This document shows, piece after piece, positions 23,786 through 49,577 of a stretch of 64,000 nt of DNA. This DNA is from an uncultured Bacteroidota bacterium. GTDB taxonomy: Bacteria > Bacteroidota > Bacteroidia > Bacteroidales > WCHB1-69. Each line of letters begins with the position of its first letter. Within the stretch, counting starts at the first letter, position 1. A program made the translations under genes and the position numbers. The stretch spans positions 20,599 through 84,598 of the forward strand of contig CADADB010000012.1 in assembly GCA_902786595.1 (NCBI GenBank), in the 5' to 3' direction. The notes beneath the pieces are model-generated. The model was not told the DNA's origin. It did no database searches and saw nothing but the letters and a program-made list of their open reading frames with translations.

Positions 23786-24925
23786 ATGGGACTTAAAACA
23801 AAAATTCAAAACAGTCTTTTCATCGAGAAGTATCTGAAGCAAGTCAATGAGAGTTATCGGAAACTACCTAATAAAGTTGAATTGACAAAAGAACAGGAGC
23901 GAGCTATACAAGACTATTGGCAAAGTTTGATAGGATTTGAGATCCCGACAGACTGGCACCGGTATTTTTATGCTCGGACGGGGCTGTTTTCAGTAAAATA
24001 TATTCCAACCAGTCTGTACCGTTTGGAATTAACAGGGCGTTTAAATCAACTGCCATGGTGCGTCCCTTTTTCGGATAAGAATCTGAATGACATTTTGCTG
24101 CCGGATATGAAGCAGCCGCACACACATTTGAAAAACAGAAATGGGTATTTTTTTGTTGAAAACAAAGCAGTAAGTTTGGAGGATGCTGTAAATTTATGTG
24201 CCAACATTGGGGATGTGATCATCAAACCCACGCTGTCTTCACATGGGGATGGTGTGAAAAAACTGCATGTCGAGAATGAGATTGTTGATGAGAAGGGCAC
24301 AACCCTTAAGGATTTGCTTGTGAAATATGGGAAAAACTATTTGATACAGGATTTGGTGAAACAACATCCCATCATGAATGCTCTGAATCCGGATTCTATA
24401 AATACCATCAGGATTGTGACCTACCGTAAGGGAATGGAGGTGTTTGTGCTGTATGCCGCCATCCGGATAGGAAGGGAAGGACAGGCCATTGATAACGAGT
24501 CGGCGGGAGGCATTAGCACCAAAATCAATATGGACGGCACGTTATGCAAGTTTGCATACGGCGCCCCAGGACAGGATAAAATTGAGCTGACGGATTCGGG
24601 GGTCAAATTGGAAGGGTATCAGGTGCCTTCATTTGAAAAGGCGATAGCCCTGGTGAAAGAACAACATCTGAATTTGCCGTTCCAGGATTTGTTGGGATGG
24701 GATATCTGTATTGACGAGGCGGGAGATCCGGTCATGTTGGAATGGAACACCACTCCGGAACTTAGCCAGTCGGCCGTGGGACCGGCGTTCGGGGATTATA
24801 CCGAAATGGTGATTAAGGATGCCATGAGCAAGCCTAACTCACGCGTAGGGGATCCTTCATATCGCATGTTGGTGCCAGTTAATATTAAAACCGTAGTGAA
24901 ATACTGTCGGCAAAAACTTTTTTGA
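23786..24925 (+). CDS. Sugar-transfer-associated ATP-grasp enzyme, subtype A (copy 1 of 4)
   Basis: The 379-aa product has an N-terminal helical region with WHRYFYARTGLFSVKYIP, then an ATP-grasp core: VIIKPTLSSHGDGVKKL, the signature DSINTIRIVTY, IDNESAGGIS, and GWDICIDEAGDPVMLEWNTT with the metal-binding Glu and Asn. ATP-grasp enzymes activate a carboxylate as acyl phosphate and join it to an amine or similar group. This subfamily occurs in exopolysaccharide loci but its reaction is, to my knowledge, not established. Two further family genes follow directly. Confidence 0.85.
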   Translation: MGLKTKIQNSLFIEKYLKQVNESYRKLPNKVELTKEQERAIQDYWQSLIGFEIPTDWHRYFYARTGLFSVKYIPTSLYRLELTGRLNQLPWCVPFSDKNLNDILLPDMKQPHTHLKNRNGYFFVENKAVSLEDAVNLCANIGDVIIKPTLSSHGDGVKKLHVENEIVDEKGTTLKDLLVKYGKNYLIQDLVKQHPIMNALNPDSINTIRIVTYRKGMEVFVLYAAIRIGREGQAIDNESAGGISTKINMDGTLCKFAYGAPGQDKIELTDSGVKLEGYQVPSFEKAIALVKEQHLNLPFQDLLGWDICIDEAGDPVMLEWNTTPELSQSAVGPAFGDYTEMVIKDAMSKPNSRVGDPSYRMLVPVNIKTVVKYCRQKLF

Positions 24926-24950
24926 TGTTTAAGCGATACTTTTTGTTACA

Positions 24951-26039
24951 ATGTTTAAGAAAATTAAAAAAATAATCGATCTTTATACAAAATATTGTGT
25001 CGGTCAAATACAGGAGCGGTATATCAAAAAATCGCTTAATGCATTAAGTGAAAGGAAAACACTTACCAAAGTCCAGAAACGGGAAATTCAAGAATTTTAC
25101 AAGGGACTCATTGGAAAAAAGATTTCATTAACCAGTCACCAATATTTTTATTCCCGTTCCGGTGTTTACTCGAAAGAATATGTGCCGACGTATCTGTATC
25201 ACACCGATATTATCGGTAAGGCGAATATGATGCCATATAGAAATGCCTTGGCTGATAAAAACATGTGTGACATTATTCTACCTGATGTCAAGCATCCTAA
25301 AACCATTCTGAAAAACATGAATGGTTATTTCTATTTTGAAGGAGAACCAGTTTCTAAGGAAGATGCGGTTCGCCGTTGCCAGAATATGCACAATATGCTA
25401 ATCAAACCATCGCTTGACAAACATGGAACCGGCGTTAAAAGTCTGGAAGTGACAAATGGCGTCACAAATCATGATGGGGCCACAGTTGAACAGGTTTTTG
25501 ACAAGTATAAGAAAAACTTCCAAATTCAAGAGCGTCTGAAGCAACATGAAAGAATGAGCGCCTTGAACCCGACATCGGTTAACACCATCAGAATCTTAAG
25601 TTACCGTTCTGGTATGGAAGTGTTAATTGTGTACGCAGTGGTGCGTATCGGAAGAAAAGGCCAGGTGATTGACAACCAAAGTGCAGGCGGTATGAGTGCC
25701 AATATTGGCAAGGATGGCAGGCTGGAAAAGTATGCATACGGCGGATCTGTTGAAGACAAAATTACAGAAACGGATTCCGGAGTGGTATTGGAAGGTTATG
25801 AGATTCCTTCGTATGACAAAGTGATAGAAACGGTGAAAAGATTGCATTTTAAAATGCCGTTTTTTGATTTGGTGGGATGGGATATGGCCGTTGACGATGT
25901 TGGCGACCCTGTCGTTTTGGAATGGAATGCTAATACAGGATTAAGTCAGTCTGCTTTTGGCCCCGGATTTGGAGAATACACGGAAAGGATTATTAAGGAG
26001 CTATGGCCAAGATCAAATAATTTCAACAGTAACTGGTAA
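24951..26039 (+). CDS. Sugar-transfer-associated ATP-grasp enzyme, subtype A (copy 2 of 4)
   Basis: The 362-aa product is collinear with the preceding gene: HQYFYSRSGVYSKEYVPTYL, LIKPSLDKHGTGVKSL, TSVNTIRILSY, IDNQSAGGMS and GWDMAVDDVGDPVVLEWNAN. It differs from copy 1 at many positions, so the duplication is old and both copies look intact. The N-terminal basic helix (MFKKIKKIIDLYTKYC) recurs in most members and may bind the membrane surface. It presumably joins a carboxylic acid to a different acceptor or position than copy 1. Confidence 0.85.
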   Translation: MFKKIKKIIDLYTKYCVGQIQERYIKKSLNALSERKTLTKVQKREIQEFYKGLIGKKISLTSHQYFYSRSGVYSKEYVPTYLYHTDIIGKANMMPYRNALADKNMCDIILPDVKHPKTILKNMNGYFYFEGEPVSKEDAVRRCQNMHNMLIKPSLDKHGTGVKSLEVTNGVTNHDGATVEQVFDKYKKNFQIQERLKQHERMSALNPTSVNTIRILSYRSGMEVLIVYAVVRIGRKGQVIDNQSAGGMSANIGKDGRLEKYAYGGSVEDKITETDSGVVLEGYEIPSYDKVIETVKRLHFKMPFFDLVGWDMAVDDVGDPVVLEWNANTGLSQSAFGPGFGEYTERIIKELWPRSNNFNSNW

Positions 26040-26122
26040 ATGGAAGTAAAGCAAGGTGTTGAGAATCTTGTTTGATGCTGTTTTTATGCCTGATGAAATT
26101 AAAAACAGAGTGTGTTGACATT

Positions 26123-27193
26123 ATGAAAATAAAAGAAATATTTTTTTCCAGCAGATTGTTTGAGTTCAGCATGGAGGTTATACTGTGGTTTCGACAAAGG
26201 TATGAATCCCTTAAAGAGGCTAAACAACATTTTAAGACGGATAAGCCTGATGTTGGATCATTCGCTGATTTCAAAAGCGCCAACTGGAAACATAGGGTCA
26301 CCTATTCGGAATACATGTATAGTTACGAGTACTGGAAGCTGAATGAAGAACAAAGGGATGAGTTTGTTTCCTCATCGGAAATGCGTTGCATCTATAGGAA
26401 ATTAAGTGATAGAAACGTGAGAGGGCTCTTTTTTGACAAAGTCAGATTCCTGAAAGAATACCATACGTTTATTCATAGGCAATGGTCTTTGGCTAAGGAT
26501 TTGAGCAAGGAACAGTTTAAGTTGATGATCCAGCAACATGATTGCATTGCAAAGCCTGTTGACGGCACGCAGGGGAAAGGTGTCTTTAAGATTTGCGCAG
26601 ATGCAGTAGATGATTTGGATGCTTTGTATTCCAAATGCGTGAAAGAAGACTTGTTGATAGAAGAGTGTGTCCAAGCTTGTGACGAGATAGCGGCGTTCCA
26701 TCCGAGTTCCTTGAATACAATTCGGGTTGTCACGTTTTCAAGCCAAGATAAATGTGTTGTTTTTGGTGCTTTGTTCCGCATGGGAGCGCATGGGAATGTA
26801 GTGGACAACACTCATGCAGGTGGTGTTTATGCCCCAGTCAATGTGGAGACGGGAACCATAGAGATAGATGCAATTGATGCTGAAAATCATCATTATTCAA
26901 ATCATCCAGACACAGGTAAACCAATCAAAGGATTTACCATTCCATATTGGGAGCAAATTCTCGAGACTTGTAAAGCCGCATCTTTGGCTGTCCCCAATGT
27001 TCGTTTTGCAGGCTGGGATATATGTGTGACAAATGATGGTCGGGTTGAACTGATTGAAGGAAATCATGCCCCTGATTTTGACGGAGGGATGCAAGCACCA
27101 TTAAAGATAGGTGTAAAGAAAAAAGTGCAAGAAACGGTATTGGATGTTATGGGGGTGGATCCGCTTAAATATATCTCAATTTGGAAATATTAA
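26123..27193 (+). CDS. Sugar-transfer-associated ATP-grasp enzyme, subtype B (copy 1 of 3)
   Basis: I prefer ATG 26123 (356 aa); the frame is open to TTG 26072, which would add 17 hydrophobic residues. The core carries AKPVDGTQGKGVFKI, SSLNTIRVVTF, VDNTHAGGVY and GWDICVTNDGRVELIEGNHA. Subtype B differs from subtype A in its N-terminal region (long helices with WKHRVTYSEYM and FLKEYHTFIHRQW) and lacks the LSQSAFGPG ending. It lies between two subtype A genes. Confidence 0.8.
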   Translation: MKIKEIFFSSRLFEFSMEVILWFRQRYESLKEAKQHFKTDKPDVGSFADFKSANWKHRVTYSEYMYSYEYWKLNEEQRDEFVSSSEMRCIYRKLSDRNVRGLFFDKVRFLKEYHTFIHRQWSLAKDLSKEQFKLMIQQHDCIAKPVDGTQGKGVFKICADAVDDLDALYSKCVKEDLLIEECVQACDEIAAFHPSSLNTIRVVTFSSQDKCVVFGALFRMGAHGNVVDNTHAGGVYAPVNVETGTIEIDAIDAENHHYSNHPDTGKPIKGFTIPYWEQILETCKAASLAVPNVRFAGWDICVTNDGRVELIEGNHAPDFDGGMQAPLKIGVKKKVQETVLDVMGVDPLKYISIWKY

Positions 27194-27234
27194 GGGTGAA
27201 AAAACAAAAAAAAGAATTAATAGCCTTTGAGCCA

Positions 27235-27257
27235 GACAAAACAGGAAATGTTTTGTC
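27235..27257 (+). other. Perfect intergenic hairpin
   Basis: GACAAAACA (27235-27243) and TGTTTTGTC (27249-27257) are perfect inverted repeats around the loop GGAAA. No T tract follows, so it is not a standard terminator. It lies in the only sizeable gap (114 bases) inside the ATP-grasp row and might stabilise or punctuate the mRNA. Confidence 0.6.
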
Positions 27258-27307
27258 AGATTTCAACAAGCCAGTGATGGAACAATTATAGAAACAAATC
27301 TGTTGTT

Positions 27308-28441
27308 ATGGGTATGAGTGTGAAAAAACTTAGTAATAGTTTAAAAGGATTGTTATACAATCTTTGTAAGAACGGATATGCGCTTGTTAATAGAATGGTG
27401 GATAGTTTAAGAAAGAAAATTATCTGCTTGCATCTTGATGTTTTCATAAAAAAACAATATTTGAAACTGTCGGATAAAAAGAAGCTCACAAAGGAACAAA
27501 AAAGAGAAATTCAAAGCTTTTATAAAGATATTATTGGAAAAAAGATAAGATTGTATTCACACGAGTATTTTTATTCGCGTACAGGATTTTATTCAAAAAA
27601 GTATGTCCCTAAAAGTTTACATGAGGTGGAAATGATACCGAAGGCAAACAAGATGTCTTATCGTGACGCGTACGCTGACAAAAACATGTTGGACACCCTA
27701 CTGCCTAATGTGAAACACCCCCACACCATTCTAAAAAGAATGAACGGTTATTTTTACTATGAAAACAAACCTGTTTCAAAACAAGATGCTGTTATCTTAT
27801 GCCAAAATATGGACCACGCTATCATAAAACCTGTCCTGAATCACAGTGGAGAAGGAATCAATGGATTGGAAGTGAAAGATGGGATAACGAATATTAACGG
27901 ATGGACTGTTGAACAACTTTTCGATCATTACGGCAAAGATTTTCAGATTCAAGAGAGACTTAAGCAACATGAAAAAATGAACCAGTTGAACGAGTCGTCG
28001 GTAAACACGATAAGGATAGTCACTTATCGTTCTGATATGGATATTTTGGTGATTTATTCGGTGGTTCGCATTGGGAGAAAGGGGGCCGTGATAGACAATC
28101 AATGCGCTGGAGGTATCAGTGCGGTCATCGGCGAGGATGGCAAAATAGGAGGAACTGCTTTTGGCGGATTTACGGAAGACGGAATTCTTAAAACAGATTC
28201 CGGAACTGTATTGGATGGATTTGAAATCCCGTCGTATCAGGAGGCCATAGAGACCGTGAAACAGCTTCATTACCAACTGCCATTCTTCAACATGATCGGC
28301 TGGGATGTGGCTATTGATGAAGCAGGAGATCCTGTGATTATAGAATGGAATGCCTGCCCGGGATTGAGCCAGTCTGCATTCGGCCCTGGCTATGGGAAAT
28401 ATACGGAGAAAATTTTGCGGGAGATATGGCACAATAATTAA
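27308..28441 (+). CDS. Sugar-transfer-associated ATP-grasp enzyme, subtype A (copy 3 of 4)
   Basis: The 377-aa product matches subtype A: HEYFYSRTGFYSKKYVPKSL, IIKPVLNHSGEGINGL, SSVNTIRIVTY, IDNQCAGGIS, GWDVAIDEAGDPVIIEWNAC and PGLSQSAFGPGYGKYTEKIL. The N-terminus is about 18 residues longer than in copy 2. It is most like copies 2 and 4 by eye. A subtype B gene follows after 36 bases, repeating the A-B order seen just upstream. Confidence 0.85.
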   Translation: MGMSVKKLSNSLKGLLYNLCKNGYALVNRMVDSLRKKIICLHLDVFIKKQYLKLSDKKKLTKEQKREIQSFYKDIIGKKIRLYSHEYFYSRTGFYSKKYVPKSLHEVEMIPKANKMSYRDAYADKNMLDTLLPNVKHPHTILKRMNGYFYYENKPVSKQDAVILCQNMDHAIIKPVLNHSGEGINGLEVKDGITNINGWTVEQLFDHYGKDFQIQERLKQHEKMNQLNESSVNTIRIVTYRSDMDILVIYSVVRIGRKGAVIDNQCAGGISAVIGEDGKIGGTAFGGFTEDGILKTDSGTVLDGFEIPSYQEAIETVKQLHYQLPFFNMIGWDVAIDEAGDPVIIEWNACPGLSQSAFGPGYGKYTEKILREIWHNN

Positions 28442-28477
28442 GTTTAGCAAAAATATTTGGACAATCATAAATGAATT

Positions 28478-29566
28478 ATGAGCAGTAAAGGGAAGATACA
28501 TTCTTTCATGTTAGGCATAGTCTATTCGCCATGGGTCAATCAACTGATATCACGTGCGGGAGGCCAGAGACTATATGCCGAATTCCTTGTCCGACAAACA
28601 AAAAAACGTCTTTTGGCAGAGGCAGAAAAGGAATTTGAGGGAGGGGCATCGTCAGGAAGTTTTGACGATTATAAACAGGCTTTGGAAAAGCATTGGGTCT
28701 CGTATTTGGAGTATGCCGAAATGTATAAGTTCTATAATAAATCGGAAGAAGAACGGTCCGAGTATGTCTCTTTATTGAAAATGATTTATTTCTATAGGAG
28801 ATATAATAATGGATCGGTATTGCCTGTCTTCCGGGATAAACAAAGATTCCTCAAGAAATATAGTAAGTATATCTATAGAAAGTGGCTGTTTGCCCCTGAG
28901 GCGACGTTTGAACAATTTACAGAATTGATAACCCGTTATGATTGTATTGTCAAGCCATGTGATGAAGCAAGAGGGAAAGGTGTTTTCAAGATATATAAAG
29001 AAGACGATTATCAAGATAAAAGGGCTCTGTATGAATCATGTGTGAAAAACCGAATGGTAGTGGAACAGTGTATCGAGTCTTGCGATGAACTTAAAGTATT
29101 TCATCCGAAGAGTCTGAACACCCTACGTGTTGTCACTGTTGGGAGTAAGGAAAAAGCATGTGTGTTTTCAGGAGTGTTTAGAGTGGGGGTTGGTGACAGC
29201 GTGGTGGACAATACTCATGCAGGTGGTATCTCTGCTCAAATAAATCCCCATGACGGCACCATTGAGACGGATGGCGCGGATTCCAAGGGTAACAGGTATG
29301 TTTGTCATCCAGACAGCGGGATCCAATTCCAAGGGTACACCATACCCCAATGGAATGCGATTGTGGAAAACTGTTGTGAATTGGCAAAAGAGACGGATAA
29401 TCCTATAACAGGTTGGGATGTGGTGATCAATAACCAAAGAGAAGTGGAATTTATTGAGGCAAATTTTGGTCCGGATTTGGACGTGATGCAGGTTCGCTAT
29501 GGGCATGGCGTGAAAAAACAATTATTTGCTTTGATAAAGGAGTTTTGTGGCATAGAAATGAATTGA
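28478..29566 (+). CDS. Sugar-transfer-associated ATP-grasp enzyme, subtype B (copy 2 of 3)
   Basis: The 362-aa product has the subtype B layout: KHWVSYLEYAEMYKFY, FLKKYSKYIYRKW, VKPCDEARGKGVFKIY, KSLNTLRVVTV, VDNTHAGGIS, and GWDVVINNQREVEFIEANF. It is clearly paralogous to 26123-27193. Together with the subtype A gene before it, it forms a second A-B pair, which hints that the two subtypes act together or in sequence. Confidence 0.85.
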   Translation: MSSKGKIHSFMLGIVYSPWVNQLISRAGGQRLYAEFLVRQTKKRLLAEAEKEFEGGASSGSFDDYKQALEKHWVSYLEYAEMYKFYNKSEEERSEYVSLLKMIYFYRRYNNGSVLPVFRDKQRFLKKYSKYIYRKWLFAPEATFEQFTELITRYDCIVKPCDEARGKGVFKIYKEDDYQDKRALYESCVKNRMVVEQCIESCDELKVFHPKSLNTLRVVTVGSKEKACVFSGVFRVGVGDSVVDNTHAGGISAQINPHDGTIETDGADSKGNRYVCHPDSGIQFQGYTIPQWNAIVENCCELAKETDNPITGWDVVINNQREVEFIEANFGPDLDVMQVRYGHGVKKQLFALIKEFCGIEMN

Positions 29567-29609: not shown

Positions 29610-30071
29610 ATGAGTAAAAACAGAGGCTTTTTTAGTGAAATGAGACGACGGCTTTGGTTTGTGACTGTCAGATTTACGAATTGGAAGCTGAAGAAAATAT
29701 TCGGAATGGACATAGGCGAAAATGTTAGAATCGCTCGAAGTGCTCATTTGGATAAGAATATTAATCCAAAAGGAATACATATTGGTGATGGATGTCAAGT
29801 GTTGTTCGATTCTGTTATTTTGGCGCATGATGATTGTAGAAAATACAAGGCCGACACTGTGATTGGCAAGAATTGCATCATAGGTGTTCGTTCTGTCATT
29901 ATGCCTGGTGTTCATGTCGGGGATTCTTCTGTGGTGGCAGCGGGCAGTGTTGTGGTGAAAGATGTTCCAGCCAATAGCATGGTGGCCGGGAATCCGGCAA
30001 AATTGATCAAAGAGGGTGTTGTGGTGGAAAATGGTCGAATCTTGGATGGCGGGCATAAAGTTTTGAAATGA
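29610..30071 (+). CDS. Left-handed beta-helix acetyltransferase (LacA/NodL-like)
   Basis: The 153-aa product has hexapeptide repeats from about residue 45 to 130 (VIGKNCIIGVRSVIMPGVHVGDSS VVAAGS region) and the closing VAGNPAKLI motif of sugar O-acetyltransferases. It should acetylate a hydroxyl or amino group of a sugar from acetyl-CoA. It sits 13 bases before the initiating sugar transferase gene, so its target may be the first sugar or a nucleotide-linked precursor. Confidence 0.85.
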   Translation: MSKNRGFFSEMRRRLWFVTVRFTNWKLKKIFGMDIGENVRIARSAHLDKNINPKGIHIGDGCQVLFDSVILAHDDCRKYKADTVIGKNCIIGVRSVIMPGVHVGDSSVVAAGSVVVKDVPANSMVAGNPAKLIKEGVVVENGRILDGGHKVLK

Positions 30072-30084: not shown

Positions 30085-30747
30085 ATGTATAGGAATCTCT
30101 TGAAACGTCTTTTCGATTTTTGCATATCACTCGTTGCCATGATATGCATCTCGCCGCTGCTGTTTGTGCTGATGCTCTGGTTGCATTTCGCCAACAAGGG
30201 GGCAGGTGTGTTTTTTACCCAAGACCGTGCAGGCAAGGATGCCAAGTTATTCAAGTGCATCAAATTCAAAACCATGACCGATGAGCGGTATCCAGACGGC
30301 CGTTTGTTGCCGGACGACAAACGGCTGACAAAAGTGGGCCGTTTCATCCGAGCGCTTTCCCTGGATGAGTTGCCGCAACTTTTTAATGTCTTGAAAGGAG
30401 ACATGGCTTTGATCGGTCCGAGACCGCTCACCCCCGTGTATTTGGAACTTTATAACGAGGAGCAAGCCCGCCGAATGGAAGTGCGCCCTGGTATTACGGG
30501 GTGGGCACAAGTGAACGGACGGAACCACTGCAAACTCAGTAAGAAATTTGAACTGGATGTATGGTATGTAGACCACCTAACCTTAGGACTTGATATCAAA
30601 ATCCTTTGGATGACAGTGATTAACGTGATCAAGCGGGAAGATGTGGGCACAGGAAATGCCGATATGCAGGAAGTGGATGACTTGGGCTTTTTGCCAAAAG
30701 TGCGAGAGTATTACGCGAAAAAAAGACAACAACAAGATGCTGAGTGA
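30085..30747 (+). CDS. Monotopic phosphoglycosyl transferase (initiating sugar transferase)
   Basis: The 220-aa product has one N-terminal re-entrant hydrophobic helix (residues about 10-34), then the bacterial sugar-transferase domain with CIKFKTM, the catalytic Asp-Glu in SLDELPQLFNVLKGDMALIG, PRPLTPVYL and RPGITGWAQVNGR. This small PglC/WcfS-type form moves a phosphosugar from a UDP-sugar to undecaprenyl phosphate, starting the repeat unit. A second, structurally unrelated initiating enzyme is at 56622. The gene overlaps the next by 11 bases. Confidence 0.92.
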   Translation: MYRNLLKRLFDFCISLVAMICISPLLFVLMLWLHFANKGAGVFFTQDRAGKDAKLFKCIKFKTMTDERYPDGRLLPDDKRLTKVGRFIRALSLDELPQLFNVLKGDMALIGPRPLTPVYLELYNEEQARRMEVRPGITGWAQVNGRNHCKLSKKFELDVWYVDHLTLGLDIKILWMTVINVIKREDVGTGNADMQEVDDLGFLPKVREYYAKKRQQQDAE

Positions 30748-31828
30748 AATAGGAAGTAATTTTTGGATCAACCCTAACGAGGAGCTGAAAGACTTGCCGC
30801 TGGGGACACCAGAACAGTTCGGCTGCAAAGGAAATGACTTTGTATGGCTGTCAACGGGCCGTTCGGCCATCAGCTTTGCCATTAAGACCATTGAAGAAAG
30901 GAATCCGCAGTTGAAGAAATCGGCGGTACTTCCTCCATTTACTTGTCATACGGTGATTGAGCCGTTCTTGAATGCGGATTATGAGGTGTATCATTATCCT
31001 ATCAATGAAAAGCTGGAGACATCCGCCGACCTTATTCTCCAATGTGTGAAAGATCATGATGCTGCGGTCGTGTTGTTCCACAGATATTTTGGCTTCAACA
31101 CGGTGAAGGGATCCGATAGTTTGTGCCGGGAACTTCGTGAGCAAAACAAATTCAGTATTGAAGATTGTACGCAATGTCTATATGATGGAAAAAACAAGTC
31201 GGATGCTGATTTTTTTGTGGGCAGCATCCGTAAATGGCAGGGTACCCCTGATGGAGGTTTTGCAGTGTGTCGCGAGGGTGAGTTCCAAGATAAACCGAAG
31301 CAGCCTGATACCCCTTTGGAACAGGCAAAAATAAAAGCTTCGTATGCCAAATACAAGTATCTGTTTGATCATGAAGGGGAGAAGCCGGCGTTCCTTCAAC
31401 TATACCGTGAGGCTGAGGATATTTTGATAGCTCAAGATGGTTTTCGTAGCATAAGCCCAACCTCTCAGAAGATGCAAAGCAATTTGGATGTCTGTTTTCT
31501 CCAGAATCGCAGAAGGGAGAATTTTCAGATTCTGCTTTTGGGACTGGCCGATTTTCAGGATGTCCGTCCTATGTTTGACAGATTAAATGCAGACATTGTT
31601 CCGCTTTATTTCCCGATATTGACAAAAGACAGGGCGGCTTTACAGGCACATCTGGTGCAGCATGCTATCTATGCTCCTGTCGTATGGCCCAAAGCGGAGT
31701 GTTTGGGCGAAGTCTGCAAAGAAGCTGAATATTTGTACCAACACCTTCTTTGCATCCCGATAGACCAGCGTTATGATAAGGATGACATGAACCGTGTTCT
31801 GGAAACCATAAACCAGTTCTGTAAATGA
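30737..31828 (+). CDS. DegT-like PLP-fold protein, divergent (copy 1)
   Basis: I set the start at ATG 30737, overlapping the transferase stop; the open frame goes farther upstream but that part is out-of-frame reading of the transferase gene. The 363-aa product has WLSTGRSAI, PPFTCHTVIEP, IEDCTQ and a Lys at 166 in GSIRKWQGTPDGGF, matching the place of the PLP Lys in DegT/DnrJ aminotransferases, but overall similarity to that family is weak. Its paralogue at 39426 is also next to ATP-grasp genes. A sugar or amino-acid transamination role is likely but unproved. Confidence 0.65.
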   Translation: MLSEIGSNFWINPNEELKDLPLGTPEQFGCKGNDFVWLSTGRSAISFAIKTIEERNPQLKKSAVLPPFTCHTVIEPFLNADYEVYHYPINEKLETSADLILQCVKDHDAAVVLFHRYFGFNTVKGSDSLCRELREQNKFSIEDCTQCLYDGKNKSDADFFVGSIRKWQGTPDGGFAVCREGEFQDKPKQPDTPLEQAKIKASYAKYKYLFDHEGEKPAFLQLYREAEDILIAQDGFRSISPTSQKMQSNLDVCFLQNRRRENFQILLLGLADFQDVRPMFDRLNADIVPLYFPILTKDRAALQAHLVQHAIYAPVVWPKAECLGEVCKEAEYLYQHLLCIPIDQRYDKDDMNRVLETINQFCK

Positions 31829-32946: not shown

Positions 32947-32947
32947 T

Positions 32948-37070: not shown

Positions 37071-37112
37071 GCCAATAGCTAATAGCTAAAAGCCAACAAC
37101 CAACCGCCAATA
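37071..37112 (+). repeat. Degenerate heptads before the VioA-like gene
   Basis: The six consecutive blocks GCCAATA, GCTAATA, GCTAAAA, GCCAACA, ACCAACC and GCCAATA end exactly on the A of the ATG at 37112. Confidence 0.85.
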
Positions 37113-41660: not shown

Positions 41661-42553
41661 AATATTACACGATGAATGAAACCCGCGAGTTTCTTGAGAG
41701 CATCGGAATGCCGGGGGGCGATCTGTACGATTTGCCCACATCCGCAAAACGTTTCCAAGACGGAGGCCAGTATCGGTTTGAGGTGCCTGGAATCCAAGGC
41801 CCAGGACCAATGAAGGCATTGTTGGATGCTTTAGACGAGTACGGCATCCAAATACACCGTGTCACCCAGACAAAGGGTATCATGTTTCTTACGGATGACG
41901 AAATCATCAAGATGGTGGAATATGCCAAGAAATGGAACGTTCAGCTCGTGTTGGCTTGCGGTCCACGTGCTACTACCGACACTTCTGCTTCAGTGAAAAC
42001 AGAGGAAGGCCAGCGCATGGGTTACCGTTTGCGCGGTGAGGAGCAGATTGCACGTGGCATAGAGGAAATCCGTCGCGGTGCCCGCTTGGGAGTGCGTGGA
42101 TTCTTGATTTATGACGAGGGATTGCTTTGGGCGTTAAATGAAGCCCGCAAAAGCGGATATATCCCTGCAGACTGCCACTTCAAGGTAAGTGCCCACTCGG
42201 GACACGGCAATCCCTGCTCGGCGCATGTGCTGGAAACTTTAGGGGCAGACAGCATTAATCCGGTTCGTGACATTCAGATTCAAATGTTGGCAGCCATGCG
42301 CTCAGCTATCAATGTGCCGATTGATTTGCATACAGAGAATCCCAAATCCAGTGGTGGTTTCATCCGCCACTATGAGGTCCCGGACTTTATCCGTGTAGCC
42401 GCTCCGGTTTATCTTAAAACCGGTGGTTCTGTGGCTGCTAACCACAGTTACGATACCACAGAGAAAGAAGCTCGTCAGCGCGCCAAACAGGTAAGCTTGG
42501 TCAAGAGAGTGATTGACACCTATTATCCGGAAGCCATCGTTTCACCGAAGTGA
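41657..42553 (+). CDS. TIM-barrel protein of unknown function
   Basis: I do not recognise a firm family for this 298-aa product. The alternating strands and helices (VQLVLACGPRA, LGVRGFLIYDEGLLWAL, FKVSAHSGHGNPCSAHVLET, LGADSINPVRDIQIQML, VPIDLHTENP, FIRVAAPVYLKTGG) indicate a TIM barrel, with some likeness to U32-type or aldolase-type barrels. Conserved-looking Cys, His and Glu residues line the strand ends. It opens a run of six genes for carbon-acid metabolism and probably makes or cleaves a C-C bond or handles a precursor. Confidence 0.5.
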   Translation: MKYYTMNETREFLESIGMPGGDLYDLPTSAKRFQDGGQYRFEVPGIQGPGPMKALLDALDEYGIQIHRVTQTKGIMFLTDDEIIKMVEYAKKWNVQLVLACGPRATTDTSASVKTEEGQRMGYRLRGEEQIARGIEEIRRGARLGVRGFLIYDEGLLWALNEARKSGYIPADCHFKVSAHSGHGNPCSAHVLETLGADSINPVRDIQIQMLAAMRSAINVPIDLHTENPKSSGGFIRHYEVPDFIRVAAPVYLKTGGSVAANHSYDTTEKEARQRAKQVSLVKRVIDTYYPEAIVSPK

Positions 42554-42610
42554 GTTCAAAGTTCAATTTGAACCTGTTAAACATATTGAACTACTGAAAT
42601 ACGAAATAAA

Positions 42611-43747
42611 ATGAAGCATCATCAGTATAATCCAAACTATCAGTTCGTGATTCCTCCTGTTGAGTTCAACAAATATACGGATCGGAGTCTTTTACAATAT
42701 TGCCTGGGTGCTACCATGTACATGCCGGGCACGAAGGATTTCGCGCAAGCTATTATCGAAAAGAAATATCCAGGGCTCACTTCCATGGTGATGTGCTTTG
42801 AGGATGCTTGCAAGGAAGAGGATGTGCCGGTTGCGGAGCAGAACTGCCTAAAGGTGTTGGAGTCATTACGGCAAAAGGTGGAAGGTGGCGAGTTGGCGTA
42901 CGAAAATATCCCGCTAATCTTTTTCCGAGTCCGCAGTGTGGACCAATTCAAGCATTTTGCCAAAATGCTGCCTATTGAATCCGTGCCGTTTATTACAGGT
43001 TTTAATTTCCCCAAATTCAACAGCATTAATGCAGCGGCTTACATGGACCATTTGGTGGATCTTAATGAGCGGGCTGGAGAAGTGTTGTATGGAATGCCCA
43101 TCATTGAGGATGCCCGTGTAGCTTACAAGGAGAGCCGATTGGAAGAGTTGATTGCCATAAAAAGGGTGCTTGACCACAACAAGGAACTTGTGCTGAATGT
43201 CCGCGTGGGCGGGACTGATTTCTCTTCGTGTTTCGGTGTCCGTCGAGGCATCAATTATACGATTTACGACATCATGACCGTGTCGAACTGCTTGATGGAC
43301 ATACTGAATGTCTTCACTCGCAACAACGATTATACGGTGAGCGGCCCCGTATGGGAGTATTTCCGTGCGAACAAACGGATGAAAGGATTGGCGGAGCTGC
43401 CCAAGGTTGATCTTCAGCAGACCTTGATGAAACGCAAGGCCATTGTGAACGATGCTGTTGACGGATTAATGCGCGAGTTGGTTTTAGACCAAGCCAATGG
43501 CTTTATGGGCAAGACCTGCATACACCCATCTCATTTAAATTATATCAACGGCATGTTGGCCGTGACCAAGGACGAGTATGATGACGCTTATCAGATTATA
43601 CACACCTCAGGAGGAGTCATCAAGGGCACTAAGGGCATGAATGAGATTGGACCGCACAAAAATTGGGCGGAGCGCATCATGATGCGCTCCAAGGCGTACG
43701 GAGTGATTAAGAATGATGCCGAATACATCAACCTGTTTGGAGCATAA
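42611..43747 (+). CDS. HpcH/HpaI-citrate-lyase-like C-C bond lyase
   Basis: The 378-aa product has the citrate-lyase beta fold: MYMPGTKDF near residue 37, MVMCFEDACKEEDVPVAE with the acidic metal-binding pair, IPLIFFRVRS with the substrate Arg, and GKTCIHPSHLNYING near the end. Enzymes of this family split or form 3-hydroxy acids such as citryl or malyl thioesters. It resembles the C-C bond lyases that accompany ATP-grasp genes in tellurite-type stress operons. Its stop overlaps the next start by one base. Confidence 0.8.
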   Translation: MKHHQYNPNYQFVIPPVEFNKYTDRSLLQYCLGATMYMPGTKDFAQAIIEKKYPGLTSMVMCFEDACKEEDVPVAEQNCLKVLESLRQKVEGGELAYENIPLIFFRVRSVDQFKHFAKMLPIESVPFITGFNFPKFNSINAAAYMDHLVDLNERAGEVLYGMPIIEDARVAYKESRLEELIAIKRVLDHNKELVLNVRVGGTDFSSCFGVRRGINYTIYDIMTVSNCLMDILNVFTRNNDYTVSGPVWEYFRANKRMKGLAELPKVDLQQTLMKRKAIVNDAVDGLMRELVLDQANGFMGKTCIHPSHLNYINGMLAVTKDEYDDAYQIIHTSGGVIKGTKGMNEIGPHKNWAERIMMRSKAYGVIKNDAEYINLFGA

Positions 43748-44253
43748 TGATAGAGCTGACAACACCACTAAAAGAAGACATCATTCGTCAACTGAAAGTT
43801 GGCGACGTGGTAACCATTACTGGGAACATCTATACTGGACGAGATGCGGTGCTTCCCAAAATTGTCAATGCTGCAGAAAACGGCTCTTTGAAGAACTTGG
43901 GCATAGACCTACAAGGTGCGGTTATCTTTCACACGGCAGTCAGCCCTGCCGGTGTGGGGCCCACCTCAAGCAACAAAGTGGAGATTGAATGCACCTTTGA
44001 GCCGTTGTCAAAGGCAGGTGTGAAAATGCACCTTGGCAAGGGAGCAATCTCCAAAGAAACGGTGAAGGCGTTGGCGGAGCAGAATGCTGTTTTCGCAATA
44101 ATCCCGCCAGTGACTGCCTTGTTGGGTAGCCAGACCGTGGAAAAGGAAATCGTAGCATTCCCCGAATTGGGGATGGAGGCGTTCAATAGGTTAAAGGTAG
44201 TCAAATACCAAGCCATCATCGCCGCAGCGAAAGGAGAATCCATCTATGAATAA
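43747..44253 (+). CDS. Fe-S hydro-lyase beta subunit (fumarase/tartrate dehydratase type)
   Basis: The 168-aa product matches the C-terminal domain of class I fumarases and the tartrate dehydratase beta subunit: GDVVTITGNIYTGRDAV at the start, VIFHTAVSPAG, KGAISKETV, and ELGMEAFNRLKV. With the alpha subunit encoded next it would add or remove water on a dicarboxylic acid. The gene order beta then alpha is the reverse of the more common order. Confidence 0.88.
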   Translation: MIELTTPLKEDIIRQLKVGDVVTITGNIYTGRDAVLPKIVNAAENGSLKNLGIDLQGAVIFHTAVSPAGVGPTSSNKVEIECTFEPLSKAGVKMHLGKGAISKETVKALAEQNAVFAIIPPVTALLGSQTVEKEIVAFPELGMEAFNRLKVVKYQAIIAAAKGESIYE

Positions 44254-45091
44254 TATCATTGACAAAGTATCTGAATGTCTTGTCCGTGCCGGCTCCACCT
44301 TCCGTGAAGACCAGAAAACTGCATACCGCAACGCGATTGCTAATGAGCCCAATAATCAAAGTTGTTGGGTGATGCAACAGGAGTTAGACAATGCACTTGT
44401 GGCAGAAGAAAACAGAAGTCCCTTGTGTGACGACACGGGCATCCCGCATCTTTTCCTTGAGGTGGGACCGAACTGCAACGTCACAGGGGAACTGCTGGAA
44501 CAAATAAAGGAAGGCATTGCACAGGGCTTGCGCCAGCTTCCGGGCCGCCCTATGGCCATCAAAGGAGATGACAACGCCCGAATAGACCAAAGCGGCGGCT
44601 TGGACGAGGACAGTGGTGCGTTGGCCCCTTCCCCGATATTGATAAAACCGGTCAAGGAAGACGTGCTGCGCCTCACTGTGCTGATGTTGGGCGGTGGCCC
44701 CGCCATCCGTGGCGTCACGCAGCGTGTGTTTCATAAGCATAACGTTGACGTGGTAATTGATGAGATTGTCAGCCGCGCCAAAGAGGGTGTTTCCAAGCTC
44801 GGATGCAGTCCATGTGTGCTGGCCGTCGGCATCGGCCGTTCACAATTCGAAGCCACCAGTTTGATGATGGAGGCCATGGTGTATGGCGACTTCGGTAAAC
44901 AATCCGTTTTCGAGAAAATAATCACCGAAAAAGTGAACGAATCCAATATCGGTCCCCTCGGGCTGGGTGGCAAGCACAGTGTGTTGGCGACTTTCGCCAA
45001 GGTGGGTCCCCAACGGGCGAGCGGAGTACGTATCGTGGCGTTGCGACCCTGTTGCTGTTTCGAGCCGAGACGCGCTTCTGTAGAATTGTAA
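44246..45091 (+). CDS. Fe-S hydro-lyase alpha subunit (fumarase/tartrate dehydratase type)
   Basis: The 281-aa product overlaps the beta gene by eight bases. Three Cys positions fit the ligands of a 4Fe-4S cluster: PLCDDTGIP near 62, LGCSPCVLAVGIG near 188, and CCCFEPRRAS close to the C-terminus. The oxygen-sensitive cluster suggests an anaerobic host. A housekeeping fumarase is unlikely to be placed inside a polysaccharide operon, so I infer that it supplies a special hydroxy-acid. Confidence 0.88.
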   Translation: MNNIIDKVSECLVRAGSTFREDQKTAYRNAIANEPNNQSCWVMQQELDNALVAEENRSPLCDDTGIPHLFLEVGPNCNVTGELLEQIKEGIAQGLRQLPGRPMAIKGDDNARIDQSGGLDEDSGALAPSPILIKPVKEDVLRLTVLMLGGGPAIRGVTQRVFHKHNVDVVIDEIVSRAKEGVSKLGCSPCVLAVGIGRSQFEATSLMMEAMVYGDFGKQSVFEKIITEKVNESNIGPLGLGGKHSVLATFAKVGPQRASGVRIVALRPCCCFEPRRASVEL

Positions 45092-45094
45092 ATT

Positions 45095-46066
45095 ATGCCG
45101 AAGATATTACATACCGCCAGATATACAGGGCTGCCCTTGGAAATACTTCAAAGAGCTTGTCCGGAGGGCTTTGTCGTCAAGACTTTGGATGAAGCTTCCT
45201 ATGAACAACTCGTCAAAGAGTGCGTTGACGCGGACTATTTTTTGGTCAGTGGTCGATTGCCGATTGATCAGACGGTGCTGAACAAATCCCAGCATCTGAA
45301 AATGATTCAGCGAACTGGCGTGGGCGCCGAGATGTTGGACACGGAAGAGATCAAGAAACGAGGCATCCCCGTCTATGTAAATGCAGGAGTGAATGCCAGA
45401 AGTGTTGCGGAACATACGCTAACGCTGATGCTTGCTACTTTGAAGCGCCTGCCCCAAATTAATATGCAGGTGCATCACAATACGTGGAAAAAGCAGCAGA
45501 CAGGTGTGACTACCCACGAATTGTATGGCAAGACGGTAGGTTTAGTCGGTATGGGGCATATCGGTCGTTTGGTTGCCTCTATCCTTCAGCCGTTCGGAGC
45601 AAAAGTGATATATACGGATGTGGTAAAACAATCTGATGAGATTGAAAAGAGTCTATCGTTGACATTTTGCGAATCATTCCAAAAATTGCTTCCTCAAGTG
45701 GATGTCCTTAGTTTCCATTGTCCTCTGACAAAGGCGAATATTGACATGTTGAATCAAAGGACTCTCGCTTTGATGAAAAAAGGATCGATAGTCGTTAACA
45801 CGGCACGTGGCAAACTCATCAATCCGGATGATTTGTACGAAGCGGTGAAGTCTGGGCATATCCTGGCTGCTGCATTGGACACGCATTATGAGGAACCGAT
45901 AAAAGAAGGATACAAGTTGGCAGAGTTGGAAAATGTGATTTTGACCCCGCATATCGGTGGGCTCTCATTCGAAGCGTTCGAATCTATGATGAATGGTGCG
46001 ATGGGGAATATCGCGGCTTTTGAACAAGGACGATTATCGGAGCTTGAAGGGAAAAGATTGTTATGA
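45095..46066 (+). CDS. D-isomer-specific 2-hydroxyacid dehydrogenase
   Basis: The 323-aa product has the NAD-binding motif VGLVGMGHIGRLVA near residue 149, the substrate-binding NTARGKLINP, and the catalytic His in ILTPHIGG. It reduces a 2-keto acid to the D-2-hydroxy acid or does the reverse. Within this six-gene run it likely acts on the product of the lyase or hydro-lyase. It overlaps the MmgE/PrpD gene by four bases. Confidence 0.9.
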   Translation: MPKILHTARYTGLPLEILQRACPEGFVVKTLDEASYEQLVKECVDADYFLVSGRLPIDQTVLNKSQHLKMIQRTGVGAEMLDTEEIKKRGIPVYVNAGVNARSVAEHTLTLMLATLKRLPQINMQVHHNTWKKQQTGVTTHELYGKTVGLVGMGHIGRLVASILQPFGAKVIYTDVVKQSDEIEKSLSLTFCESFQKLLPQVDVLSFHCPLTKANIDMLNQRTLALMKKGSIVVNTARGKLINPDDLYEAVKSGHILAAALDTHYEEPIKEGYKLAELENVILTPHIGGLSFEAFESMMNGAMGNIAAFEQGRLSELEGKRLL

Positions 46067-47370
46067 AGAAGCAGAATCTGACAGACAGCTTTATAGAAGG
46101 CCTTTTTGCCAAATCGAAAACGATTCCTGACAGGGTGGTTCGACAGGCGAAGAAATGCCTGCTGGATTATTTGGGCGTTGTGGTTGGAGGTGCCAAGTAT
46201 TTGCAGCGGCAACATCCTGGTTTTTTCAACTCATTGGTGAAAGACAGAGGTGAGTGTTCCGTGCTGGGTACCGCATATAAAACCACTTCTATTAATGCTG
46301 CTTTGCTGAACGGATTCAGTGCGCACGTGCTGGAATTGGATGACGGTCATCGCAAAGGAATGATACATCTTGGAGCATCCGTCATTTCCGCTGTTCTTGC
46401 TGTCTCCGAGGATGAAAAGTTGACCTCTGATGAGGTTTTGCGTGGGGTGATAATGGGTTACGAGGCCGCTGTGCGTTGTGCATGCGCCTTGCAGCCAGGA
46501 CACAAGGTACGAGGTTATCATGTCTCGGGGACCTGCGGCACTATCGGTTCTGCAGTGGGCGTTGCATTCGCATGTGGTTACACGAAGGAACAACTGAAAT
46601 CCACCTTGGCGTGTGCGGTTACCAGTGCTGCCGGAGTGTTGGAAATACAGGAGCAAGCTTCCGAACTGAAACCTTACAATTTGGGCCGTGCAGCAATGGA
46701 CGGGATTGCGGCAAGCCAGTTGGGGCGTTTGGCTTTGCCGGGTCCGGATGATATCTTAGGTGGCAAGCGCGGTTTGCTCGCAGTGTTGACGGATACCCCG
46801 ACCCCGTCATATCTAGTTGATTTCAATGAAGATTATAGCATCGAAGGCATCTATCAGAAGATGTATGCCGCCTGCCGTCATTGTCATCCTGCCATTGAAG
46901 CTGCTATTGCCATCAAAAATGATATCAACCTGAAGCCCGAACAGGTAGATAGGGTAGAGGTTCACACCTACAAATTGGCGGTCGGAGGGCATGACCATAA
47001 GGATGTGAAGGGCATCAGTTCAGCCAAGCTGAGCACACCATACAGTGTGGCTTTGGCCATAGTGAAAAGGAATGCTGGATTTGAGGACTTCAACGAGGCC
47101 AATCTCCAAGATTCCGATGTTATCGGATTAACGCATAAAGTCAGTGTGGTTGAGGATGAAAACCTTACAGCCCAATCGCCGGCAGTTCGCGGGGCGCGGG
47201 TGGTTATCCGACTGAAAAACGGTGAAGAATATGAGAAAGAGATTCTCTATCCCAAGGGGGAACCGGAGAATCCGATCAGTAATGAGGAAATCCGACAGAA
47301 AATTCTTCGGTTGATGGGAAACTATAGCAAAAATCTTTCAGACAGTTTGTTCAAGGACCTGTGGGCTTAA
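46063..47370 (+). CDS. MmgE/PrpD-family dehydratase or decarboxylase
   Basis: The 435-aa product has the family features ELDDGHRKGMIHLGASV near the substrate site, GYEAAVRCACAL, GYHVSGTCGTIGSAVGVA, and AACRHCHPAIEAAI. Relatives include 2-methylcitrate dehydratase, cis-aconitate decarboxylase (itaconate-forming) and imidate isomerases. The exact substrate is unknown, but a tri- or dicarboxylic acid fits the neighbouring lyase and hydro-lyase. Its end overlaps the GTG of the next ATP-grasp gene by ten bases. Confidence 0.85.
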   Translation: MKKQNLTDSFIEGLFAKSKTIPDRVVRQAKKCLLDYLGVVVGGAKYLQRQHPGFFNSLVKDRGECSVLGTAYKTTSINAALLNGFSAHVLELDDGHRKGMIHLGASVISAVLAVSEDEKLTSDEVLRGVIMGYEAAVRCACALQPGHKVRGYHVSGTCGTIGSAVGVAFACGYTKEQLKSTLACAVTSAAGVLEIQEQASELKPYNLGRAAMDGIAASQLGRLALPGPDDILGGKRGLLAVLTDTPTPSYLVDFNEDYSIEGIYQKMYAACRHCHPAIEAAIAIKNDINLKPEQVDRVEVHTYKLAVGGHDHKDVKGISSAKLSTPYSVALAIVKRNAGFEDFNEANLQDSDVIGLTHKVSVVEDENLTAQSPAVRGARVVIRLKNGEEYEKEILYPKGEPENPISNEEIRQKILRLMGNYSKNLSDSLFKDLWA

Positions 47371-48458
47371 TAAATAAGATATATAACCAATTGCCCATGG
47401 GCATGAAGGTTTTCATCTTCAAAAAGATGAAAATGGACAAGCCATGTGGCTATGGTGAAGTCTATCGGGTCACTTTGAATAAAGCATACGACACATTTCT
47501 GACACAGGAGGAAAGGGAAGATAACGCGTTACTTAAGTCCTTGACGGATGATGTCGTAGGATGTTGGATTAAATACAAAGCGTTGCCGTATGAGTATTTC
47601 CTTTTCAATTTCCGCCATCGGAGTGAAAAGGAAAGATGGGAGTTCGAGACAGATTTAGACAGATTGTTGACATTGTGTCGTGTTTCAGATAATAAACTTT
47701 TCAAAGAAGAGATCAACAACAAGTATAATTTTTATCGCTTGGCTAAACCCTATTTCAAACGCGAGGCCATCGTCGTTGATTCTTCAGAACGGATGAACGA
47801 TTTTGTTGCATTTGTCAAAAGACAAGGCGAGGTGTTTGTCAAACCTTTGGAAGGATCGAAGGGTAGGGGCGCGCATGTTTTTTTGTATGAAAATGACGAG
47901 GGGGCTGCTGCCTATTGTAGCGAGTTGTTGGCTGAAGGGCCTTCTTGGATGGTGGAAGAGCGTATCCGGCAAAGTGCAGCCATGGGACAATGGAACGAGA
48001 CATCGGTGAACACAATCCGAATCCCTTCATTCTTGCGTGACGGCAAGTTTACTGTAATATGGACCCGTATGCGTATGGGGAAGAGGGGCGCGATTGTTGA
48101 CAATGCTGCCGCGGGTGGCATTGTGGTGAATGTGGATCCCAAGACGGGTGTGGTATCTAGTGATGGCATTGACGAGTCTTACAACCATTTCGAAAAGCAT
48201 CCGGATTGCGGCCTGCCCTTTAAGGGCTGGCAGGTCCCTCGCTGGAACGAATTGTTAAAGACTGTAGAGGAACTTCACCGTACTGTGTTTTACAAACATG
48301 TATATGTGGCATGGGATTTCGCACTTACCGATGACGGTTGGCTGGTGATTGAAGGAAACTGGGGGCAGTTGTTAGGTCAGCAGACCGCCAGCCAAGTGGG
48401 GGTGAGGAGAAAATTCCACGAATTGGTGGGGGATGAAGATTATATGGTCAATCAATAA
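47361..48458 (+). CDS. Sugar-transfer-associated ATP-grasp enzyme, subtype B (copy 3 of 3)
   Basis: The 365-aa product starts at GTG 47361 inside the MmgE/PrpD gene; an internal ATG at 47397 is possible. It has VKPLEGSKGRGAHVF, TSVNTIRIPSF, VDNAAAGGIV and VAWDFALTDDGWLVIEGNW. It is the most divergent of the seven: the GWD motif is AWD and the acidic residue after the core is replaced by LVIEGNWGQ. The direct overlap with a carboxylic-acid enzyme suggests that it uses that module's product. Confidence 0.82.
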   Translation: MGLINKIYNQLPMGMKVFIFKKMKMDKPCGYGEVYRVTLNKAYDTFLTQEEREDNALLKSLTDDVVGCWIKYKALPYEYFLFNFRHRSEKERWEFETDLDRLLTLCRVSDNKLFKEEINNKYNFYRLAKPYFKREAIVVDSSERMNDFVAFVKRQGEVFVKPLEGSKGRGAHVFLYENDEGAAAYCSELLAEGPSWMVEERIRQSAAMGQWNETSVNTIRIPSFLRDGKFTVIWTRMRMGKRGAIVDNAAAGGIVVNVDPKTGVVSSDGIDESYNHFEKHPDCGLPFKGWQVPRWNELLKTVEELHRTVFYKHVYVAWDFALTDDGWLVIEGNWGQLLGQQTASQVGVRRKFHELVGDEDYMVNQ

Positions 48459-48488
48459 GTAGTTGAAATTAATAAACTTCAGTTAGGA

Positions 48489-49577
48489 ATGGGCCTTCTC
48501 GGAAAATTGAGGAAATCTTTTAGAAAGCGTCAATTAGCGAAAGCTTTGACTAAGAAAATTACCCGAAACTTTAAAGATTTGAAAGTAAGAAGGAAACTGA
48601 CTCGTGCACAAAAAAAAGAGGTAAACGATTTTTATAAAGGATTGATAGGACGTAAAGTTCCACTTTATTGCCATGAGTATTTTTATTCACGTACGGGTGT
48701 GTTCTCAAAAGACTATATCCCCAAGGATTTTTATACTATGGAGATTCTTCAGAAAGCAAATGTTTACCAATTCAGAGATGCTTATGATGATAAGAATATC
48801 TACGATATACTTTTTGCGGGTGAGAACGTCGTTCATACTATTCTGAAAAACATGAATGGCTATTACTATTATGAAGGAGAACCTGTTTCGGAGGAAAACG
48901 CAGTCCGACTTTGTCAAAACATGGAAAATGTTATCCTAAAACCAGCTATGGGGAAACACGGGGATGGGGTTAAATTGCTAACGGTTAAGGATGGTAAAAC
49001 CAATGTGAATAACATGACTGTTAGGGAATTGTTCAAACAGTATAAACACAATTTCCTGATTCAGGAGCGAGTTAAACAGCACAAGAAATTAGCTGATCTA
49101 AATCCTACTTCTGTCAACACGTTGCGTATTCTGACTTATCATTCAGGGATGGAAGTGCTGATTATTTATTCAGTGATTAGAATAGGACGTAATGGTCAGG
49201 TTATAGACAACCAATGCGCTGGAGGAATAAGTACTACCATCTCAAAAGACGGTAAGCTTGGCAAAGCTGCATTTGGCGGCTATAGTGAAGACAATGTACT
49301 GGTTTCAGACACAGGTGTCACACTTGAGGGATACCAGCTGCCTTCGTATGACAAAGCGATTGCATACGTGAAGAGACTACATACTAAATTGCCATATTTC
49401 AATATTATTGGTTGGGATATTTCGATTGAAGAAAATGGTGAACCCATTTTAATTGAGTTCAACACACATCCAGGATTGAGCCAGTCGGCGTTTTGTTCTG
49501 GTATGGGTGAAAATACGGAGAGAATTATACGAGAACTTTGGCCGAAGCGAAACACGATGTTTGAGGGGTATGAATAG
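48489..49577 (+). CDS. Sugar-transfer-associated ATP-grasp enzyme, subtype A (copy 4 of 4)
   Basis: The 362-aa product matches subtype A closely: HEYFYSRTGVFSKDYIP, ILKPAMGKHGDGVKLL, TSVNTLRILTY, IDNQCAGGIS, GWDISIEENGEPILIEFNTH and PGLSQSAF. The N-terminus is strongly basic (KLRKSFRKRQLAKALTKK), fitting a membrane-surface location. With the subtype B gene before it, this is a third B/A neighbour pair, 18 kb away from the main row. A terminator-like hairpin follows. Confidence 0.85.
   Translation: MGLLGKLRKSFRKRQLAKALTKKITRNFKDLKVRRKLTRAQKKEVNDFYKGLIGRKVPLYCHEYFYSRTGVFSKDYIPKDFYTMEILQKANVYQFRDAYDDKNIYDILFAGENVVHTILKNMNGYYYYEGEPVSEENAVRLCQNMENVILKPAMGKHGDGVKLLTVKDGKTNVNNMTVRELFKQYKHNFLIQERVKQHKKLADLNPTSVNTLRILTYHSGMEVLIIYSVIRIGRNGQVIDNQCAGGISTTISKDGKLGKAAFGGYSEDNVLVSDTGVTLEGYQLPSYDKAIAYVKRLHTKLPYFNIIGWDISIEENGEPILIEFNTHPGLSQSAFCSGMGENTERIIRELWPKRNTMFEGYE

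Follow-up and report, generated by a model that had tools for sequence, protein, structure and literature searches.

Seven ATPgrasp_ST genes of three types in a capsule locus of an uncultured Bacteroidales bacterium: candidate amide ligases beside an opine-type dehydrogenase

In the capsule of Campylobacter jejuni, the TupA-like C-terminal domain of Cj1438 (Cj1438C) is described as amidating glucuronic acid with serinol or ethanolamine phosphate (PMC11800379, PMC12096443), and a related domain is described in C. jejuni HS:19 (PMC13276843), where HS19.11C is about 60% identical to Cj1438C. C. jejuni is also described as requiring Cj1435–Cj1437 and Cj1441 (PMC12096443). Here we analyse a stretch of 64,000 nucleotides (hereafter the window; contig CADADB010000012.1, positions 20,599 to 84,598) from an uncultured Bacteroidales bacterium, in which seven intact genes of the ATPgrasp_ST family (PF14397; hereafter ST genes) lie within 25.8 kb of a Wzx-type capsule locus. 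Cj1435–Cj1437 and Cj1441 presumably include a UDP-glucose dehydrogenase and pyridoxal phosphate (PLP) enzymes comparable to genes of the window. As far as Cj1438C is described in these reports, the likeness lies in an ATP-grasp enzyme encoded in a capsule locus and in a proposed amidation of a sugar acid during chain assembly; the window differs in its PF14397 proteins without a PF14305 (TupA-like amidoligase) match, in having seven copies rather than one domain, and in the opine-type dehydrogenase and carboxylic-acid cassette encoded nearby.

The name ATPgrasp_ST reportedly goes back to a computational study by Iyer, Abhiman, Burroughs and Aravind in 2009. The family and its link with glycan genes are common to that study and to this one; the present analysis adds a locus with seven genes of three types and the association with TupA, Wzx and a dehydrogenase of the opine type. 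An amide-linked opine-type amino acid, N-epsilon-(1-carboxyethyl)lysine on galacturonic acid, is described in the O-antigen of Providencia rustigianii O14 (PMC10609480); it represents the product class proposed here, and this bacterium of a different phylum is likened to ours by its glycan product, not by its enzymes. For operons with several ATP-grasp peptide ligases, linkage of the ligases is described as suggesting successive ligations (PMC4431377); unlike the operons in that description, the set in the window lies in a Wzx capsule locus and comprises ten ATP-grasps. Within the searches made, the conserved neighbourhood of opine-type dehydrogenase, Wzx and ligase is new, as are the size and the mixed types of the ST set. 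We hold it to be somewhat probable that the seven ST proteins are ATP-dependent amide ligases acting on the capsule repeat unit or its precursors, each with its own acid/amine couple and with an opine among the building blocks.

All seven ST open reading frames (ORFs) have the coordinates given in an earlier sequence-only reading, are on the plus strand, encode 356–379 amino acids with no internal stops, and score 124.5–176.6 bits against the PF14397 profile (cut-off 31.4; Table 1); none of the seven proteins matches PF14305 at E 1e-3. The earliest possible start of B1 is a TTG at 26072. The whole genome (2.84 Mb, 40 contigs) contains eight ST genes over the cut-off, i.e. the seven in the window and C10:14147. 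At least one such gene is present in 36 of the 40 genomes of the genus, and ST genes over the cut-off occur in 55 of 104 genomes of the family. Among the 43 ST contig-loci of the genus, a count that includes fragments at contig ends, 23 contain one gene, 14 two, four three, one six (genome G009) and one seven, the last being the window, the largest of all. These genus counts bear on the earlier statement that polysaccharide loci usually hold none to two ST genes. Outside this class, the phylum also has tandem runs of four to five ST genes (G598, G661 and G754), showing that arrays as such are not unique. The reported counts were taken from the genus and family searches; two further searches scored part of the candidates in some genomes (in our own, 6/11 and 8/11), and their counts are lower bounds. 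Loci with runs of this length in other classes include L085, L086 and L087, the neighbours of which were compared solely with our own query set. The number of ST genes in the window is thus real and extreme, though arrays recur.

The motifs NT(I/L)R and DN-x2-AGG, noted earlier, are kept in all seven proteins. LSQSAF, proposed as a mark of subtype A, reads LSQSAV in A1 (23786) and stands for the other A proteins. The 16 conserved positions that were checked are identical across the set, as are the ATP-grasp-type residues K152, R214, R232, D311, E324 and N326 (A2 numbering), which are presumably catalytic. A1–A4 are mutually 44–60% identical and fall in a single clade of 62 proteins with ultrafast bootstrap support (UFBoot) of 88, the next wider clade containing 69 proteins (UFBoot 100); B1 and B2 are 42% identical and lie in a clade separate from A (UFBoot 99–100). 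The 47361 protein, previously counted as a third B, is 24–25% identical to B1 and B2 and 21–22% to the A proteins. In an IQ-TREE tree of 128 proteins, which excludes seven duplicate loci, proteins shorter than 300 amino acids and identical copies, it groups with L037_2534 and Clostridia proteins in a B-side clade of 21 (support 88); in a FastTree tree of 189 proteins, which excludes identical copies and proteins below 290 amino acids (213 of 219 left), it falls on the C side (support 0.84). The low identity and the two trees rule out its membership in subtype B, and by its sequence it is, together with its L037 neighbour, an ST type of its own, here called D. The order in the window is therefore A-A-B-A-B and later D-A. 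Type C is absent from the window and represented by the eighth ST copy of the genome (L009_9943). The two alternating subtypes of the earlier reading are accordingly borne out for all four A genes and two of three B genes; A and B are separate clades for six of the seven genes, and the seven do not all fall in two clades.

For six of the seven ST genes, the sister is from the locus of another species (UFBoot 100). The closest relatives of A1, A4 and 47361 are in L037 (83, 81 and 70% identical, respectively), near a dehydrogenase–Wzx–PGA_cap set and MmgE; L037_2534, the sister of 47361, likewise adjoins MmgE. Those of B1 and A3 are in G009 (76 and 75%), and those of B2 are in L022 and G009 (65 and 62%). 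In its make-up, the window locus resembles a mosaic drawn from two or more source loci. The distribution of sisters implies that most of the paralogue splits predate these species, and, each of these six genes having its own close relative elsewhere, different substrates are likely. Recent tandem duplication, with dosage or drift and no distinct functions, is very improbable: the first five ST genes do lie head to tail, and A2 and A3 are 60% identical, but the sisters in other species disfavour it and the conserved residues are intact in all seven proteins. In L021, L022, L026, G009 and the window, the A3 clade is co-located with a conserved protein of the 41657 type and a C-C lyase; in L042, these two are present without an A3-clade gene. 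Such paralogue-specific company fits different substrates, although linked inheritance alone could also explain it.

The alternation had been read as A and B working in pairs. After removal of 12 loci sharing an ST protein with a kept locus, the 101 ST-bearing loci gave 89 unique loci, of which 51 contain A, 8 contain B, 6 contain A and B, and 23 contain A and C. The 41 loci L021–L061 were found by a subtype-A query, with A present by construction; the genus searches are free of that bias. An obligate partnership of A and B (or A and C), with one heteromeric or two-step ligase per pair, would fit the 10 A/B neighbour pairs (6 A-B, 4 B-A), the adjoining B2 and A3 relatives in the window, L023 and L022, and the position of C 5' of A in 22 of 22 C/A pairs within 1.5 kb, with no pair reversed. 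However, neighbours of the A-A kind occur nine times, and 16 genus genomes have exactly one ST gene over the cut-off, namely nine with C, five with A (two of them at least 98% complete, two only 51–59% complete) and two with B (in one of which, G016, the gene is at a contig end). These single-type genomes argue against an obligate A/B partnership and rule out such pairing as a rule, and we regard the general idea of obligate partners as improbable. The search for A/B neighbours thus found them elsewhere, in either order, with A mostly lacking B and the two not always co-occurring. The usual neighbours of A are instead C on the 5' side and a TupA-like ATP-grasp (PF14305) on the 3' side: the latter is found 3' of ST-A, its domain match at most 600 bp from that of ST-A, in 17 of the 22 genus genomes that have A, among them every one of the five lone-A genomes. 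Being flanked variably by C, a TupA-like gene or B, A appears to be part of a ligase chain whose other members vary.

Around lone type C genes (e.g. L009, 6490–11082), a SIS-isomerase relative was found in 12 of 13 loci and an acetyltransferase-like gene in all 13; the L009 neighbourhood also contains a GHMP kinase and a nucleotidyltransferase gene. This company suggests a heptose glycan.

In the window, the gene that immediately precedes Wzx and the ST genes on the 5' side encodes an opine-forming-type dehydrogenase. Its PF02317 domain and full-length similarity to N-(1-D-carboxylethyl)-L-norvaline dehydrogenase (CENDH; PDB 1bg6, residues 3–360 of the 20058 protein, E=1.3e-29) place it in the CENDH type. 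In other genomes, the dehydrogenase resembles saccharopine dehydrogenase/aminoadipic semialdehyde synthase (E=1e-26 to 1e-12). The genus contains 43 such dehydrogenases, 25 of the saccharopine type and 18 of the Octopine_DH type (excluding G003:C31, a fragment below the cut-off). The two types are nearly exclusive, with both present in three and neither in two of the 40 genomes (Fisher p = 4e-6, not corrected for ancestry). Of the 43 dehydrogenase genes, 34 (34/40 genomes) have a PF13440 Wzx no more than 1 kb away, and 28 (random expectation about 0.5; 27/40 genomes) have an ST or TupA-like gene no more than 6 kb away, whereas the corresponding values for the control PF02397, an initiating transferase family, are 0/95 and 4/95; all these distances run from match to match and not from gene end to gene end. 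When loci of the genus and beyond it are taken together, a dehydrogenase is present in 33 of the 38 unique subtype-A loci that have a Wzx relative. That two families of like chemistry occupy one slot is an argument that their products belong to one class, N-carboxyalkyl amino acids. This order of dehydrogenase, Wzx and ST/TupA, conserved in the genus while two dehydrogenase families swap, provides concrete candidate substrates for PF14397.

With respect to the reaction, AlphaFold models of two of the seven proteins, A4 and B1 (predicted local distance difference test 91.0 and 88.9), have ATP-grasp enzymes as top PDB structure matches. The best Foldseek matches include the amide-forming ligases BacD, Ddl, YwfE and ArgX for A4, and DdlB, RimK, PsnB, RizA, ArgX and glutathione synthetase for B1. 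In A1 and B1, the two proteins scanned, sub-threshold NCBIfam matches are to glutamate ligases and glutathione synthetase. From fold, conserved residues and context, amide-bond chemistry is the best inference for the ST genes. A non-amide ATP-grasp reaction on glycans, i.e. phosphoryl transfer or ester formation, seems quite improbable: the structural matches do include biotin carboxylase and CAIR synthase, and type C can be the sole ST gene in a neighbourhood of GHMP kinase, nucleotidyltransferase and SIS isomerase genes with no evident acid/amine supply, but the matches are chiefly amide-forming ligases, and the sub-threshold profile matches point the same way.

In the amide-ligase scheme that we favour, the ST proteins, though not TupA members, probably act in a TupA-like manner, by analogy with Cj1438C. 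As cytoplasmic enzymes, they would modify the repeat unit of a Wzx/Wzy-type capsule while it is lipid-linked, or its precursors; every paralogue would have its own acid/amine couple and every bond its own ligase. The dehydrogenase beside Wzx would make an opine (N-carboxyalkyl amino acid) as at least one class of building block; others could come from the acid cassette at 41657–47370, the DegT aminotransferases and perhaps amino-alcohol phosphates, the last supplied and transferred by the fused 51696 protein and LicD. A sugar acid could be provided by the 10687 product, a UDP-glucose/GDP-mannose dehydrogenase family protein. If so, the surface glycan would carry charged amino-acid derivatives, which would be of interest with regard to immune recognition and to the ways in which Bacteroidales of the gut and rumen interact with phages and hosts.

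Two variants differ in what is joined. In the first, the ligases would N-acylate amino sugars with a cassette acid and a DegT-made amine, instead of amidating uronates or extending amino-acid chains. Two DegT proteins, the sub-threshold match at 30641 and the 39426 product, which by eye resembles a DegT-type PLP enzyme, do share the locus with the acid cassette. Whole or in part, that cassette recurs in seven other ST loci (L002/L023, L021, L022, L026, L037, L042 and L044); in L021 and L022 it follows an ST-A gene immediately on the 3' side. Its 41657-type protein is 92–95% identical where present. The dehydrogenase and TupA links, however, indicate amino-acid-type donors as well, and of the 14 unique loci in which C, A and TupA occur together, two have a DegT relative and none has the C-C lyase; we consider this variant unlikely. 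In the second, somewhat more doubtful still, the repeat unit would carry, or be linked by, a template-free opine pseudopeptide resembling a peptidoglycan stem, with one residue per ST paralogue, assembled stepwise by up to ten ATP-grasp ligases together with a FemAB-like and a GNAT enzyme.

Several observations weigh against amide ligation with opine substrates. The Foldseek TM-scores are modest (0.32–0.45 on the query), and non-amide ATP-grasps rank among the best matches, with biotin carboxylase sixth for A4, and CAIR synthase second, along with carbamoyl-phosphate synthetase, for B1. Searches of the PDB by sequence, made with two of the seven proteins, returned no solved relative for A2, nor for B1, the only match of which was TTLL6 (E 0.24–0.86). 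Open-licence literature searched by PF14397 family name and accession yielded no characterised enzyme or reaction, and ST ligases were absent from titles and abstract openings among the matches listed in broader searches. Lone type C genes adjoin heptose-type genes in 12 of 13 loci, and none of the 13 stretches contains an opine-type dehydrogenase. The only TupA-like gene over the cut-off in our genome is on a separate contig (C20). Regarding the dehydrogenase, Fisher's test ignores shared ancestry, and PF02397 as a single family is an incomplete control for the clustering of glycan genes. Five of the 38 A loci with Wzx (L024, L026, L036, L045 and L074) have no dehydrogenase in the stretch covered, and 13 of the 40 genus genomes have none within 6 kb of ST/TupA, eight of these having one beside Wzx elsewhere. 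Proximity of the dehydrogenase to Wzx (34/43) is commoner than its proximity to the ligases (28/43), and because 31 of 44 of these Wzx genes themselves have ST/TupA no more than 6 kb away, the dehydrogenase may be linked with the ligases by way of Wzx. It may thus serve the flipped glycan without giving the ligases their substrate; gene order alone ties the opine product to the ligases.

Table 1. Features of the window, with profile or structure matches and closest relatives.
Feature	Coordinates	Strand	Evidence
Opine-type dehydrogenase, Octopine_DH/N-(1-carboxyethyl)norvaline-dehydrogenase-like	20058..21146	+	PF02317 109.7 bits; PDB 1bg6
Wzx-type flippase	21155..22627	+	PF13440 314 bits
PGA_cap protein adjoining ST genes	22620..23771	+	PF09587 148 bits
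A1, ATPgrasp_ST subtype A	23786..24925	+	PF14397 145.6 bits; sister L037_8756, UFBoot 100
A2, ATPgrasp_ST subtype A	24951..26039	+	PF14397 124.5 bits; sister support only 50
B1, ATPgrasp_ST subtype B	26123..27193	+	PF14397 176.6 bits; sister L023_5313 (G009), UFBoot 100
A3, ATPgrasp_ST subtype A	27308..28441	+	PF14397 133.7 bits; sister L023_9872, UFBoot 100
B2, ATPgrasp_ST subtype B	28478..29566	+	PF14397 169.7 bits; clade with L023_8737 and L022_8797, UFBoot 100
Hexapeptide acyltransferase	29610..30071	+	PF14602/PF00132
Possible DegT-like PLP enzyme	30641..31828	+	PF01041 E=0.0016, below cut-off; start uncertain, overlaps WcaJ
Non-ST ATP-grasp X1 (ATP-grasp_4)	31825..32946	+	PF13535 81 bits
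FemAB-like acyl/aminoacyl transferase	34777..35760	+	PF02388, PF13480
DegT aminotransferase 1	35800..37050	+	PF01041
DegT aminotransferase 2	37112..38221	+	PF01041
Non-ST ATP-grasp X2	38224..39429	+	PF13535 44 bits
Non-ST ATP-grasp X3	40401..41660	+	PF13535 27.5 bits (cut-off 27)
Putative carboxylic-acid supply cassette: conserved unassigned protein 41657; C-C lyase 42611; fumarase C and N parts 43747/44246; D-2-hydroxyacid dehydrogenase 45095; MmgE/PrpD 46063	41657..47370	+	PF15617, PF05683, PF05681, PF02826, PF03972
D (formerly third B, B3), third ATPgrasp_ST type	47361..48458	+	PF14397 148.5 bits; sister L037_2534
A4, ATPgrasp_ST subtype A	48489..49577	+	PF14397 151.8 bits; sister L037_9956, then L044_9968
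Fused CTP:phosphocholine-cytidylyltransferase-like/threonine-phosphate-decarboxylase-like protein	51696..53507	+	PDB 1jyk E=4e-11, 6oux E=1e-42
Second Octopine_DH-type dehydrogenase	53522..54631	+	PF02317 89 bits
LicD phosphotransferase	54662..55453	+	PF04991

The three ATP-grasps that complete the set of ten belong to other families (31825, 38224 and 40401). Relatives of the PGA_cap protein are present in 37 of the 51 unique subtype-A loci; that it removes phosphate, like the phosphatase Cj1435 of C. jejuni, is only a guess. The group at 51696–55453 (fused protein, second opine-type dehydrogenase and LicD) suggests decoration with a phospho-amino-alcohol. Searches of PDB and Pfam gave no significant relative for the 41657 protein or for 39426, the best matches of the latter being GFP (E=0.2) and DUF2135 (E=0.089). 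Past the last capsule gene, 58107–64000 contains only short ORFs, four of which were scanned against Pfam without a match at E 0.5 or below; an Rfam search of the window gave no match. In addition, the capsule locus includes a gene of the beta-lactamase family (serine hydrolase; 33572–34735). At 15687–19996 there is a small acyl-chain cassette of two short-chain dehydrogenase/reductase family reductases, an AMP-binding ligase and a KASIII-like synthase; G009 and L038 have relatives of these genes, as does L047 for part of them.

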